Origin: a bacterium
Lineage (GTDB): Bacteria; Electryoneota; RPQS01
Direction of reading: 5' to 3'
Length of the DNA stretch: 36,300 bases
Assembly (NCBI GenBank): GCA_013360195.1
Contig: JABWCQ010000022.1
Location: forward strand, 1-36,300
Position numbers and translations under genes: made by a program. Positions 31,070-36,300 of the stretch are shown piece after piece (position 1 is the stretch's first letter; every line of letters begins with the position of its first letter). The notes beneath the pieces were generated by a model. That model was given only the letters and a program-made list of their open reading frames with translations. It was not told the DNA's origin and made no database searches.

Positions 31070-31987
31070 TTGAAACAGTGGCTGGTGTTCCTTTACCTTG
31101 GCTGTTTAGCCTGGGGCACATCATTTTTGTGGATTAAGCTGGCCTTGCGCGAGCTGGGGCCGATGACGATGGTGAGCTGGCGGCTGATTTTCGGCGCCGC
31201 GATAACATGGGTGATCATCCGTTGGCAGAAGTTTGACCTGAAGTGGTCGGGCAAAGAGTTCTGGCTGCCGTTCTTTCTGGGGATTACAAGTGTTGCCATG
31301 CCGATAAGCTTAATCGGTTTTGCGGAGACGCGCATTGACTCAGGTCTGGCGGGTGTGCTGAACGCGACGATGCCGCTGTGGACGATGCTGATGGCTCACT
31401 ACTTTTTGCATGACGAGCGTTTCACGCTGCCGAAGTTTTTGGGTCTTCTGTCAGGGATTGCGGGGATTTATATTCTCATGAATCCCGATTTCGGAAAAGA
31501 GCGCGATGTGCTCGGACAAGCCGCGATGCTCGGTGCAACCTTTTTGTACGCGGGGAGCACGATTTCGCAGCGCAAGTTTATGCGCGGCGTTCATCCCTAT
31601 CAGATGGGACTTCCGCTGATATTGGGCGGCATGGTGTTCATCGTCGTGATGGCGGCGATATTCGAAGCGCCGTTCAAAGTTCCGCAGATTCCGCTGACCT
31701 GGCTGGCGTGCGCGTGGATGGGCATTCTGGGTATGGGACTTTCGACGGTGGCCTGGTTTTATCTTTTGAATCACTGGGGCGCAACGCGCACGTCGCTGGT
31801 GACATTTGTGTTTCCGCCGACGGCGGTACTTCTGGGGGTGTTCTTTCTGGACGAGCCGCTGCACTGGGACATCGTGCTGGGCGGCGGATTGATTATCGCG
31901 GGAATCGCGCTGGTGAACTATTATACCTACTGTCAATGCGACGAGAGAGTTCCTCGAAATCGCCAACGACTTTGCGAATCCACTTGA
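31070..31987 (+). CDS. EamA-family (DMT) transporter, with an unusual C-terminal tail
   Basis: The product (305 aa) has ten predicted helices in two EamA repeats; the first starts LYLGCLAWGTSFLWIKLAL and the second ends GGGLIIAGIALVN. Family members export amino acids or metabolites. The TTG start is supported by GGGGAG 6 nt upstream and an N-terminal membrane segment. After GIALVNYY the sequence changes to a polar Arg/Cys-rich tail that does not resemble the family. That tail overlaps, in another frame, the upstream-extended coding sequence of the next gene, which suggests the native 3' end was replaced by the incoming island. Confidence 0.87.
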   Translation: MKQWLVFLYLGCLAWGTSFLWIKLALRELGPMTMVSWRLIFGAAITWVIIRWQKFDLKWSGKEFWLPFFLGITSVAMPISLIGFAETRIDSGLAGVLNATMPLWTMLMAHYFLHDERFTLPKFLGLLSGIAGIYILMNPDFGKERDVLGQAAMLGATFLYAGSTISQRKFMRGVHPYQMGLPLILGGMVFIVVMAAIFEAPFKVPQIPLTWLACAWMGILGMGLSTVAWFYLLNHWGATRTSLVTFVFPPTAVLLGVFFLDEPLHWDIVLGGGLIIAGIALVNYYTYCQCDERVPRNRQRLCEST

Positions 31988-31988
31988 A

Positions 31989-33599
31989 TTGGTTAGAGAA
32001 GCAATCAGTAATTCCTATGATGCAAACGCTTCGCTAATAACTGTGTTGTTCGATGTTATTCAAGATTGTGGCGAATCAGTTCTTAGAATTAGATTGCAAG
32101 ATAATGGTGAGGGTATGGACCGGCTTGGCCTCCAAGCATTTTTTGACTTGGGAAATTCAATGTCAAGAGAAGATCCTACAAAAATCGGAGAAAAGGGGCA
32201 TGGAACAAAAGTTTACTTTAATAGCTCGCGAATCCGAGTCGTGACCTATAGGAACGGTGAGCGCTTAGAGGCTTCGGTCGATACCCCATTTCGCTCCCTT
32301 CACAATGGTACAATTCCACAGGTTAAAGTTTCGGCAGGACCTTCCAGCGATAGTCGAACAGGTACCGAAATAGAGATAATTGGTTACAACAATAACCGCC
32401 GCGACAGGTTCACCCATGCAATACTGAAGGACTACATTCTGTGGTTCACCAAACATGGCTCCATTGAGCATGTTTTTAATACTTCAAAATCAAATGTGAG
32501 ATTAAGACTTCAAGGACTTGATAGTCAAACAATAGAAGAGATTGAAGTTGGTCATCCTTTTCCTGGTGAAAGCCCAAGTATAACTTCCCTTTTTGATACA
32601 CATTTGGCATACGCCCCTGACCATTACTGTAAGAGAATTGTTCGGACAGGAACACTTTCTGATCATCCGGAAGTAACCTTTGAAGCCGTTTTTAGTATTG
32701 AAGGTTCAAGAGTCAAGTATGACAATAACCTAATGCTTCGACGCTCTGGTTATCAATCTCCGAAAGGGGCATATACTGTTCAAGAGAGATACGGCCTTTG
32801 GCTATGCAAAGATTATATTCCGATCCAAAGAAAAAACGATTGGATAGGTGTTAAAGGCACTGAATATACTCGTTTTCATGCGTTCGTGAATTGCCAAGAC
32901 TTGAGACTCACTGCCAACCGTGGTTCAATTGAAAATACTCCTTCTGAGAAACTATCTGATCTAAAAAATACCGTTCGTCAGATTTATGAAGACATAGTCG
33001 AAAGCAACGACTGGAGAGACTTGGATTGGCTAGAAAGTCAGGCGGGAGCTTTTCGAACTGTTGAAAAGGAGCGCAGAGATTATGGCTGGAGAGTTTCCCG
33101 AATCAATAAGACAAATATTGCTGTGTTTGAGGGGACGCAATTAGTCGAGCCAACGCGAGAGAGTGGCGTCTTTGCTCTCTATATTTTGGTTGCTCAGAAA
33201 AAACCAGAACTTTTCCCATTTTACGTATTAGACTATGATACCCATGAAGGCATAGATGTAATCGTAAAATCAGATGCCACAACACCAATTTCACAATCTA
33301 AACTGTTCTATGTTGAATTCAAGCATATTTTGACCAAGGACTTTAATCATTCGTTTGAAAATGTCCACTCTATCGTTTGTTGGGATACACAGATTAAGCA
33401 CAGCGAAACTGTTGAAGACATTACTGGCGAGACCAGAAAACTCATGATTGTTCAACCTGAGAAGGAAGGCGATTACACCAAGTACTTTCTTGACAACGAG
33501 CAGAAAGCGCGAAAAGTAGAGGTATTCGTACTCAAGAGTTATTTGAAGGAAAAGCTCGGTATTGATTTCAAGCCCCGAACAACGGCATCAGTTTTGTAA
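31989..33599 (+). CDS. GHKL (HSP90/MORC-like) ATPase fused to a PD-(D/E)XK-like nuclease domain
   Basis: From the first canonical start (TTG) the product is 536 residues. Sequence typical of the family lies upstream in the same frame (REFLEIANDFANPLEL, from about 31944), but the frame has no ATG, GTG or TTG back to a stop at 31914. ATPase motifs are EAISNSYDAN (4-13), DNGEGMD (38-44), GEKGHGTK (67-74) and GTEIEI (125-130). The C-terminal part has GID (421-423) and YVEFK (441-445), the D...ExK pattern of nucleases, then FNHSF and IVCWD. MORC-like ATPases joined to such nucleases are known in restriction-type systems. The region is clearly AT-richer than its neighbours. Confidence 0.78.
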   Translation: MVREAISNSYDANASLITVLFDVIQDCGESVLRIRLQDNGEGMDRLGLQAFFDLGNSMSREDPTKIGEKGHGTKVYFNSSRIRVVTYRNGERLEASVDTPFRSLHNGTIPQVKVSAGPSSDSRTGTEIEIIGYNNNRRDRFTHAILKDYILWFTKHGSIEHVFNTSKSNVRLRLQGLDSQTIEEIEVGHPFPGESPSITSLFDTHLAYAPDHYCKRIVRTGTLSDHPEVTFEAVFSIEGSRVKYDNNLMLRRSGYQSPKGAYTVQERYGLWLCKDYIPIQRKNDWIGVKGTEYTRFHAFVNCQDLRLTANRGSIENTPSEKLSDLKNTVRQIYEDIVESNDWRDLDWLESQAGAFRTVEKERRDYGWRVSRINKTNIAVFEGTQLVEPTRESGVFALYILVAQKKPELFPFYVLDYDTHEGIDVIVKSDATTPISQSKLFYVEFKHILTKDFNHSFENVHSIVCWDTQIKHSETVEDITGETRKLMIVQPEKEGDYTKYFLDNEQKARKVEVFVLKSYLKEKLGIDFKPRTTASVL

Positions 33600-33667
33600 C
33601 GCGTAAAAAATTGATTGGATTGCAAGTCGTTTCAGTTTGAAGAAGGGTTAGAGAGGAGAATATTAAC

Positions 33668-34075
33668 ATGCGTGATCAATTGCTAAAAGTTATTGTGAGA
33701 TACCCCAATCTTGCATATGGCGGATTGAATTGTCAAGAATACGAGAGGTATAATGGTTCAAGTTTTGAACATGATAGAAAATTACTTTACGACGCAATTG
33801 AGGAGTTCGCGCTAGCCGTGGAGTGGCTAAGCACGAAAAGACGCCAGAGATCTTGTAATCTCAATTACGTTTGTGGCCATATTAAGGACGACATAAGAAA
33901 GTGGGCTAATCACAATGGCAATCCAATTCAATACGTAAGTCAAGGAGCCACAATCGCCGCGGCGATTGCCCTTGGGTTTAGATACAGATCGTTGCCTTTT
34001 TGTAGGTTCAAGGCTGCGATCAATATTGCTAACCCTAGACCTTTTGCTTCGGGGAAATCTGTTGAGAGCTTTTAG
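33668..34075 (+). CDS. Small protein of unknown function beside the GHKL-nuclease gene
   Basis: No family named with confidence. The 135-residue protein has a helical middle (AIEEFALAVEWLS) and the segment QYVSQGATIAAAIALGF (about 88-104). This resembles, in my recollection, small proteins of mobile elements in which a similar ISNGAxIAAA stretch occurs. GGAG lies 9 nt before the ATG. Its base composition matches the preceding GHKL gene, and the 68-nt gap suggests one accessory unit. It might be a partner, regulator or unrelated cargo. Confidence 0.6.
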   Translation: MRDQLLKVIVRYPNLAYGGLNCQEYERYNGSSFEHDRKLLYDAIEEFALAVEWLSTKRRQRSCNLNYVCGHIKDDIRKWANHNGNPIQYVSQGATIAAAIALGFRYRSLPFCRFKAAINIANPRPFASGKSVESF

Positions 34076-34185
34076 ATTCTAGTCGAACAACGCGCTGAAG
34101 TGTGTAGATTTGCCATTAGCTTTAAGTTCATCTCGAAACACGAATTCAACCATTAATGATCCAATTTGCAATCGGAGACAATACG

Positions 34186-36300
34186 ATGAAGCGGTCCCAT
34201 ATGATTTTTGTCATGCTTGCCGTTTGGTGTTTGGCAAGCGTTAGTGTGGCTCAGGTGTCTCAGGGCGGTTCGCCGGCGAGCCTGAGTCTGACGGGCATGT
34301 CCGCGCCGGAGACGCGCAGTCTGCCTGCGGTGAATGCGGATGTTCTGCTGGCGGAAGATGAGCAGGAGAGCAAGGATGTTCCGTTGCGGTTCGGCTATCC
34401 GCACGATGTGAGCTTCAATTTGAGCAACAGCGGCACGTGGAGAGACGAAGGAAGGGCGGGTTTGGCGACTGAGACTTGAGTCGCGCGGCGCCTATTCGGT
34501 CAATCTGGTGTTCGACCGGTTTGACCTGCCGACGGGTGGACAGTTTTTTGTTTACAGCGATAATTACGACTACGTCATCGGCGCGTTCACAGAGGCAAAT
34601 GAATTTCCGGGCGGCGAGTTTTCGACGCAGCCGGTTCCGGGAGACGCGGTGACACTTGAGTATTACGAGCCAGCGGAAGCGCGGGGACAGAGCGAGATTT
34701 CGCTGATGCGCGTCGTTCATGCCTATCGTAATCTGTTCGGCCGTGAAAATAATCCGTTGGACGATTTCGGTGACAGCGGGACCTGCAACAACAACGTGAA
34801 TTGTCCGGAGGGCGCGGCGTGGCAGGAGCAGAAGCGCGGCGTGGTGATGCTGTTGACGAGCGGCGGTTTCCGGTATTGCTCCGGCTCGCTGATAAACAAT
34901 ACGAACAACGACGGCACGCCGTTTGTATTGACGGCGGATCACTGTGATCCGACGACGACGTCGGTATTCATGTTCAACTATGAAAGTCCGGGCTGTCCGA
35001 ACGTGAACGGTCCGACGAATCAAACGGTCGCGGGCTGTCAGCTACTCTTCAACAGCAGCGCATCGGATGTTCAGCTTGTCCGGTTGAACAGCAACGTTCC
35101 GCTCAACTATAATCCGTATTTCAGCGGGTGGAACGCGAACGACGCGGCGGCGACAAACTCCGTTTGTATTCACCACCCGAGCGGCGACATCAAGAAGATA
35201 ACGTTTGACAATCAGGCTCCGGTGTCGAGCACATGGTCGGGCACACCGGCCAATTCACATTGGCGGATATTGAACTGGGAAGACGGCACGACGGAGCCGG
35301 GCTCCTCGGGTTCGCCGCTTTTTGATCAGAATCACCGGATCACCGGGCAATTGCACGGCGGGACGGCGAGCTGCACGAACAACATAGACGATTATTACGG
35401 CAAGTTTTCGCTGTCGATGACGAACGGTTTGCGGGCTCATTTGGATCCGGGCAACAGCGGTGTGATGACGCTGGACGGATTTGATCCGCAGGCCGGCGGA
35501 TTTGTGACGGGCACGGTGCGCAACGCAACGACGCTGCTGCCGATCTCGGGAGCGACGGTTCAGGTGGTTGGCGGAGTCAACTCTGCGACGACGAACGCGA
35601 GTGGCGTTTATTTCATGCCGCTGCCGGACGGAGCGACGTATGATTTGGCATTCAGCGCTTATGCTTATGTATCCGACACGGTGACGGGAATAACGATCGT
35701 TGAAGGTGACACGGTGATTGCGGACATGAACTTGACCGCATTGCCGATTATCACAGTACTTGAAGAAGACTTTGAAACGGGAGCGCCGGGCTGGACGCAC
35801 AATACGCCGGGCGGAACATGGGTGGACGATTGGCATATTTCGACGGAGCGTTCGCGCTCGACATCACACAGTTACAAGTGCGGCTCGACGACGACGGGAA
35901 CGTATCGCGCATTTAACGACGCACGTTTGCTGTCGCCGGTGATGAACAATCTGCCTGCGGACGCGGTGTTGAGTTTCTGGATGCAGTTGGAAGGCGAAGT
36001 GTCGGGTGTGTATCCGGATTCGGCTTATGACGGCGGAATCCTGGAGATTTCTGTAAATGGCGGAGCGTTCACACAGATAACACCCCAGGGCGGTTATCCG
36101 AATACATTCCGCTACACGGTGGGCGGCGGGGCACCTGCACAGGGGCCGATGTTAGGCTTGCCGTGCTGGGCGACGACGCTGACCACATGGACTCAGATGA
36201 CGGCTGATTTGTCGGCATATGCCGGTTCGAACGTGCAATTGAGGTTCCGCTTTGGTTCGGACAACAGTGTTCAGCGCGAAGGCTGGTATGTGGATGATGT
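34186..36300 (+). pseudogene. Secreted lysyl-endopeptidase-like serine protease, frameshifted and cut by the window end
   Basis: The start is the ATG at 34186 with GGAG 8 nt upstream, followed by a signal peptide (cleavage near SVSVAQ). The first frame stops at 34479. Near 34444-34452 one extra base shifts the frame, after which the sequence continues as GRVWRLRLESRGAYSVNL and stays open to 36300. The second part has the trypsin-like triad LTADHC, SDVQLVRL and GSSGSPLFD. Then comes a carboxypeptidase-regulatory-like beta domain (GTVRNATTLLPISGATV) and a jelly-roll-like region ending WYVDDV. It resembles secreted proteases with C-terminal adhesion domains. The frameshift may be real or a sequencing error. 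Confidence 0.8.

Follow-up and report, generated by a model that had tools for sequence, protein, structure and literature searches.

The locus and its insert

The window, by which we mean the whole 36,300-nucleotide stretch analysed, carries an AT-rich segment between an EamA transporter gene and a protease gene; the features of this region are collected in Table 1. An AT-rich island had been recognized here in the initial annotation, and comparison with a sister genome of the same genus (G001) bore this out once its left end was corrected to about 31920. In the sister, the unoccupied site is preserved as GGTGAACT, then 49 bp, then ATTCAACG (locus L033); between GGTGAACT and ATTCAAC there are thus 49 bp in G001 versus 2,224 bp in the window. 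The 49 bp that were replaced comprise the ancestral end of the EamA gene and the intergenic region between it and the protease gene. The insert has a GC content of 41.5% versus 53-57% in the flanks, and the lowest value for any insert-sized stretch upstream in the contig is 48.2%. Third-position GC is 0.37-0.41 in the insert versus 0.63-0.69 in the neighboring genes. The insert is laterally acquired DNA between two ordinary genes. Both of its flanks are syntenic with the sister, which speaks against a chimeric contig, and G001 itself has no counterpart of the GHKL gene that the insert carries.

Table 1. Coordinates of features in the window, with the evidence for each
Feature	Position	Strand	Evidence or remark
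EamA transporter gene	31070..31987	+	about 22 codons of insert sequence stand in place of the last codons (WRK and stop in the sister); sister comparison
Foreign AT-rich insert, 2,224 bp	about 31920..34143	.	empty site in same-genus genome G001; GC content
GHKL ATPase / probable PD-(D/E)XK-type nuclease gene	31917..33599	+	translation; homolog N-termini; Pfam HATPase_c_3
TTG start of the initial annotation	31989..31991	+	would remove the invariant E11/F12/E14/I15/A16/D18/F19 segment
GHKL N box (E28, N32, D35)	31998..32021	+	invariant in 12/12 aligned relatives, haloarchaeal included
GHKL motif QDNGEGMD (D62, G64, G66, M67)	32097..32120	+	positions invariant in alignment
GHKL motif GEKGHGTK (G91-K98)	32187..32210	+	positions invariant in alignment
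C-terminal domain	33063..33596	+	E415, D447, E467 and K469 invariant; FNHSF and IVCWD follow
135-codon ORF	33668..34075	+	good ribosome site; remote family of plasmid hypothetical proteins

In G001 the EamA protein ends in GIALVNWRK, followed by a stop codon and then the protease gene. In the window the EamA stop codon is at 31985-31987, adjoining the TTG at 31989, and the left end of the insert falls within the apparent EamA tail. No integrase was found within the insert. Several kinds of element were considered and rejected: flanking repeats or insertion-sequence ends (short chance repeats only, no terminal repeat), an integron gene cassette (no attC, and folding between and after both ORFs no better than that of shuffled sequences) and an RNA element (no match in an Rfam search). 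Entry of the GHKL gene was probably an illegitimate replacement event at the EamA 3' end, and the clean empty site would then record the landing of a single cargo gene, without integrase or repeats, that was clipped on arrival. The protease gene 3' to the island (34184-36298) encodes a trypsin-like protein with CarboxypepD_reg and choice-of-anchor J domains; compared with the sister, 2 bp are missing near 34440, so that the signal-peptide start and the main ORF (at 34508) are no longer in one frame.

The GHKL gene and its start

The GHKL open frame runs for 560 undamaged codons from 31917, with an in-frame stop directly upstream at 31914-31916; residues of the protein are numbered here from window position 31917. 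The protein is a member of the GHKL ATPase superfamily, with an N box, a DxGxG motif, a glycine-rich lid and a Bergerat fold. The motifs read in the initial annotation are indeed intact, and Pfam HATPase_c_3 matches at about 3e-11. The N-terminal half models as a GHKL domain followed by an S5 domain, for which Foldseek returned Hsp90, MutL, GyrB and MORC4.

The protein had been called as 536 residues from the TTG at 31989, because only ATG, GTG and TTG were considered as starts. This call does not hold, as homologs extend the conserved sequence to about 31920. Read from 31917, the frame gives TIIPTVNATREFLEIANDFANPLEL, then VREAISNSYDAN; the TIIPTVNATREFLEIANDFANPLEL segment is present in alignments of every full-length homolog, and E11, F12, E14, I15, A16, D18 and F19 do not vary even among haloarchaeal relatives that are about 28% identical overall. 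No in-frame ATG, GTG or TTG lies ahead of this invariant N-terminal helix, the sole upstream candidates being ATT at 31920, the first possible (and rare) start of the frame, and ATA at 31923. In homologs the start codon, normally ATG, lies four to eleven residues ahead of the conserved P4. Since the left breakpoint falls among the opening codons of the GHKL gene, either the gene arrived without its start codon or it relies on the ATT. Judged by these sequence comparisons, the window copy lacks a standard start codon and is probably clipped, and it is probably expressed weakly or not at all. On this reading the gene would have lost its start codon at the breakpoint, together with roughly five initial codons. 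A dead gene would hardly be expected to keep 560 undamaged codons unless the insertion were recent, and we take the intact frame as a sign of a recent insertion.

The C-terminal domain

In its middle part the AlphaFold model of the whole protein is poor (mean pLDDT 68), and statements on fold are drawn from a separate AlphaFold2 model of the C-terminal 178 residues (pLDDT 90.5, pTM 0.86). In domain numbering, this model has a helix at 33-46 and strands at 54-59, 65-69 and 81-90, with E33 at the opening of the helix, D65 at the opening of the second strand and E85-x-K87 in the third. These residues correspond to E415, D447, E467 and K469 of the full frame and are invariant in 12 close relatives with 43-61% identity over the domain. 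The GID...YVEFK pattern that had been noted as D423/E443/K445 is thus present as D447/E467/K469. The order E-D-ExK on a predicted helix and three strands is that of the PD-(D/E)XK nucleases, an assignment made by motif and topology.

Searches of Pfam, PHROG, PADLOC and PDB sequences gave no match to the domain, and Foldseek comparison of the model with PDB and BFVD gave nothing at E below 0.001. The DUF4263 profile was absent from all family members at E values up to 10, and in hhalign comparison with DUF4263 only the D...ExK strands aligned (IDVIVK...YVEFK), with a probability of 0.4%. The PD-(D/E)XK superfamily is known to escape profile and fold searches, so that a missing match does not disprove a nuclease. 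The proposal of a PD-(D/E)XK domain therefore stands as to the invariant E-D-ExK order, if not as to recognition by profile or fold, and from its residues and modeled topology the domain is a probable restriction-fold nuclease.

Among distant relatives that bear the CW signature, the EFK of the window protein is replaced by ELV (G018), EVE (G805) or AVH/SVH (haloarchaea). The lysine of ExK is therefore lost in G018 and G805, and both E and K in the haloarchaea, with the CW signature kept throughout; across the wider family the only invariant residues of the domain are R10, P30, L90 and W107. This stepwise loss offers a natural series for study of the role of the domain.

The 135-codon ORF

The 135-codon ORF gave no plasmid or phage match at 0.01 and none in viral contigs. 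Its remote family was reached only via a relative in genome G004 (28% identity) and includes a protein on a Shewanella plasmid (26%) and others on rhizobial plasmids. The two genes of the insert had been described as a stand-alone pair; the survey found adjacency in the window only, with the ORF beside 0 GHKL homologs, and we rejected it as a partner of the GHKL gene. It is probably a passenger of the insert. On two plasmids, members of the remote family have Abi, Schlafen/AlbA_2 and Shedu genes nearby, which is no more than suggestive. At one such locus (L055:4509-6516) the family is found inside a 305-residue plasmid protein beside a Schlafen/AlbA_2 protein, and a Shedu gene is located a few kb away.

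Distribution and genomic neighborhoods

Eleven full-length homologs, 48-60% identical to the window protein, were identified: eight in 84,980 species genomes, in a pattern-based scan able to detect close relatives only, one among plasmids and two in viral contigs. The hosts are Gammaproteobacteria, Chlorobi, an archaeon, Acidobacteria, Ruminococcus and Paenibacillus, in addition to a Caballeronia plasmid and the two viral contigs. A further intact homolog, in the same phylum as the window, is split across two contigs. Several weak loci from the species-genome scan were rejected as MutL, histidine kinases or other GHKL proteins. The family proved very rare on wider sampling: neither 397 further genomes from the Marinobacterium phylum nor 296 from the Acidobacteriaceae phylum added a member, and a single divergent one was present among 249 relatives of the archaeal genome. 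Neither E. coli genomes, searched at the DNA level, nor phage records gave a match. Bacterial homologs from different classes or phyla are 74-77% identical; the value for Marinobacterium and Chlorobaculum is 74%, which points to frequent transfer. The gene is AT-richer than both flanks at 9 of the 11 loci.

Neighbors at some loci include PDDEXK_4 genes, a D12 methylase with AlwI, integrases and PIN/MazE genes. Several close homologs have housekeeping surroundings, with gyrA, SUF or ABC-transporter genes next to them, and are not in defence islands. As no neighbor is constant, the GHKL gene is considered solitary. The family is rare, solitary, highly mobile and sporadic in distribution. The defence-like character first suggested for the island agrees with this mobile and sporadic distribution, and the survey places integrases and genes of restriction-modification, toxin-antitoxin and PDDEXK type at some loci only; support from genomic context is thus moderate.

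Individual loci showed further arrangements. Two PDDEXK_4 genes lie downstream of the archaeal homolog (L012:2505-5312), possibly in a defence island. The contig of a divergent archaeal relative of 542 residues (L071:4262-11227) also holds a BglII-type restriction enzyme, an N4/N6 methylase and an integrase-like gene. In the phylum of the window, a frameshifted divergent relative directly follows HicB- and HicA-like genes (L047:3347-5374).

On two haloarchaeal plasmids (L030:6748-9545 and L031:6737-9536) a divergent GHKL gene, whose product is one of those without the C-terminal E and K, lies directly after a tRNA-guanine transglycosylase (TGT) gene. The pair is conserved at 59-60% identity for each gene, in surroundings that differ between the plasmids. 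One of these loci also holds DUF6884 (weakly YaaA-like), phospholipase-D-like and DEAD helicase genes. We take these TGT-GHKL loci to resemble those for 7-deazaguanine in DNA (Dpd), the TGT being perhaps DpdA-like; the resemblance concerns two records. A bolder reading is that GHKL effectors whose C-terminal domain has the CW signature form a family not yet described, in which the E-D-ExK branch acts as a lone nuclease and the haloarchaeal branch is paired with a DpdA-like TGT. We regard this as speculative and the least probable of the readings considered here; if true, the haloarchaeal pair would link GHKL clamps to 7-deazaguanine marking of DNA.

Proposed function and alternatives

The reading that we favor, by a modest measure, is that the GHKL gene of the insert is a copy, clipped in the window, of a solitary mobile family of GHKL/nuclease-like proteins that provide one-protein, DNA-restricting defence like VcSduA and paraMORC3. 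By analogy with those proteins, the family likely acts in restriction of invading DNA. ATP binding would close a GHKL-S5 dimer on foreign DNA, and the closed dimer would license the C-terminal E-D-ExK domain to cut it; dimer clamping, cutting and target are all part of the proposal. Should the close family restrict phage, it would represent a compact one-gene GHKL-nuclease lineage that is absent from PADLOC 2023, Pfam, NCBIfam and PHROGs and that spans bacteria, archaea, a plasmid and viral contigs.

Three other explanations were weighed. The window copy may be functional, starting at the ATT or being coupled to the end of EamA, which would make the island an active module. Its complete frame with every invariant residue, the variability among homologs of the residues ahead of P4, and the position of the EamA stop beside the TTG would all fit this view. 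However, a standard start is missing before E11-F19 and use of the TTG deletes that segment, the GGTGA upstream of the ATT is EamA sequence also found in the sister, and the 135-codon ORF is not a constant partner; we consider an active module rather unlikely. The C-terminal domain could also be a binding or regulatory one and no nuclease, the protein being an Hsp90/MORC-like GHKL remodeller of a mobile element's protein or DNA complexes. The few domain residues kept in the wider family, the loss of lysine and then of both E and K with distance, and the failure of searches to recognize a nuclease family are consistent with such a role. It is nevertheless unlikely in view of the close family, where E415, D447, E467 and K469 are invariant in spite of the divergence of the domain, and have the order and strand positions to be expected of an active site.

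Nor does it seem probable that the protein is a true Shedu protein (type I-D, GHKL-DUF4263) or a paraMORC3 protein whose DUF4263 has diverged beyond recognition. The order of GHKL, S5 and C-terminal E-D-ExK is the same, as is the solitary and sporadic occurrence; the GHKL parts align with those of a GHKL-DUF4263 protein (L065) at an hhalign probability of 88%, and hhalign places the D...ExK strands on those of DUF4263. Against this are the lack of a DUF4263 profile match and of a Foldseek match above noise, the very low hhalign probability over the domain, and the lack of a counterpart to the conserved glutamine region of DUF4263, in place of which NH.F and CW are invariant. Membership in Shedu (SduA) is thus unsupported, DUF4263/PF14082 having been found in no member.

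Comparison with known systems

Several known proteins share the GHKL part. The restriction enzymes BbrUII and HgiDII (NF050001) have a GHKL N-terminus, but similarity to them is confined to about 100 GHKL residues and reaches 18.5 bits versus a cut-off of 550. Tiamat (TmtA) and MzaB of PADLOC are defence proteins with a GHKL ATPase domain, but the match covers no more than 60-100 GHKL residues and is confined to relatives; membership in Tiamat was rejected, as the TmtA models span 1,300-1,650 positions.

The proteins of paraMORC3 combine GHKL-S5 with a C-terminal E-D-ExK domain, include a standalone subset and have a patchy, wide distribution (Iyer, Abhiman and Aravind 2008, PMC2292703). The present family agrees in architecture and in its standalone state, a comparison made by published architecture only, and may be a member of paraMORC3. 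In paraMORC3 the domain recovered RecB-type nucleases by profile search (PMC2292703), whereas that of the window family recovers nothing in this way.

VcSduA, the type I-D Shedu protein of Vibrio cholerae, is a solitary GHKL-PD-(D/E)xK protein whose action against phage depends on its ATPase residues as well as its nuclease residues (PMC12137116). Like it, the present family is solitary, carried on mobile DNA, and built of N-terminal GHKL motifs I-IV and a C-terminal domain that is probably of PD-(D/E)xK type. In VcSduA, however, the C-terminal domain is DUF4263, which is undetectable here, where NH.F and CW are conserved instead. The initial annotation was apt in likening the protein to MORC/MutL-like GHKL proteins in restriction (PMC2292703; PMC12137116). 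Its remark that this was not a system it could name was half right, since a class of solitary GHKL-nuclease proteins has been described.
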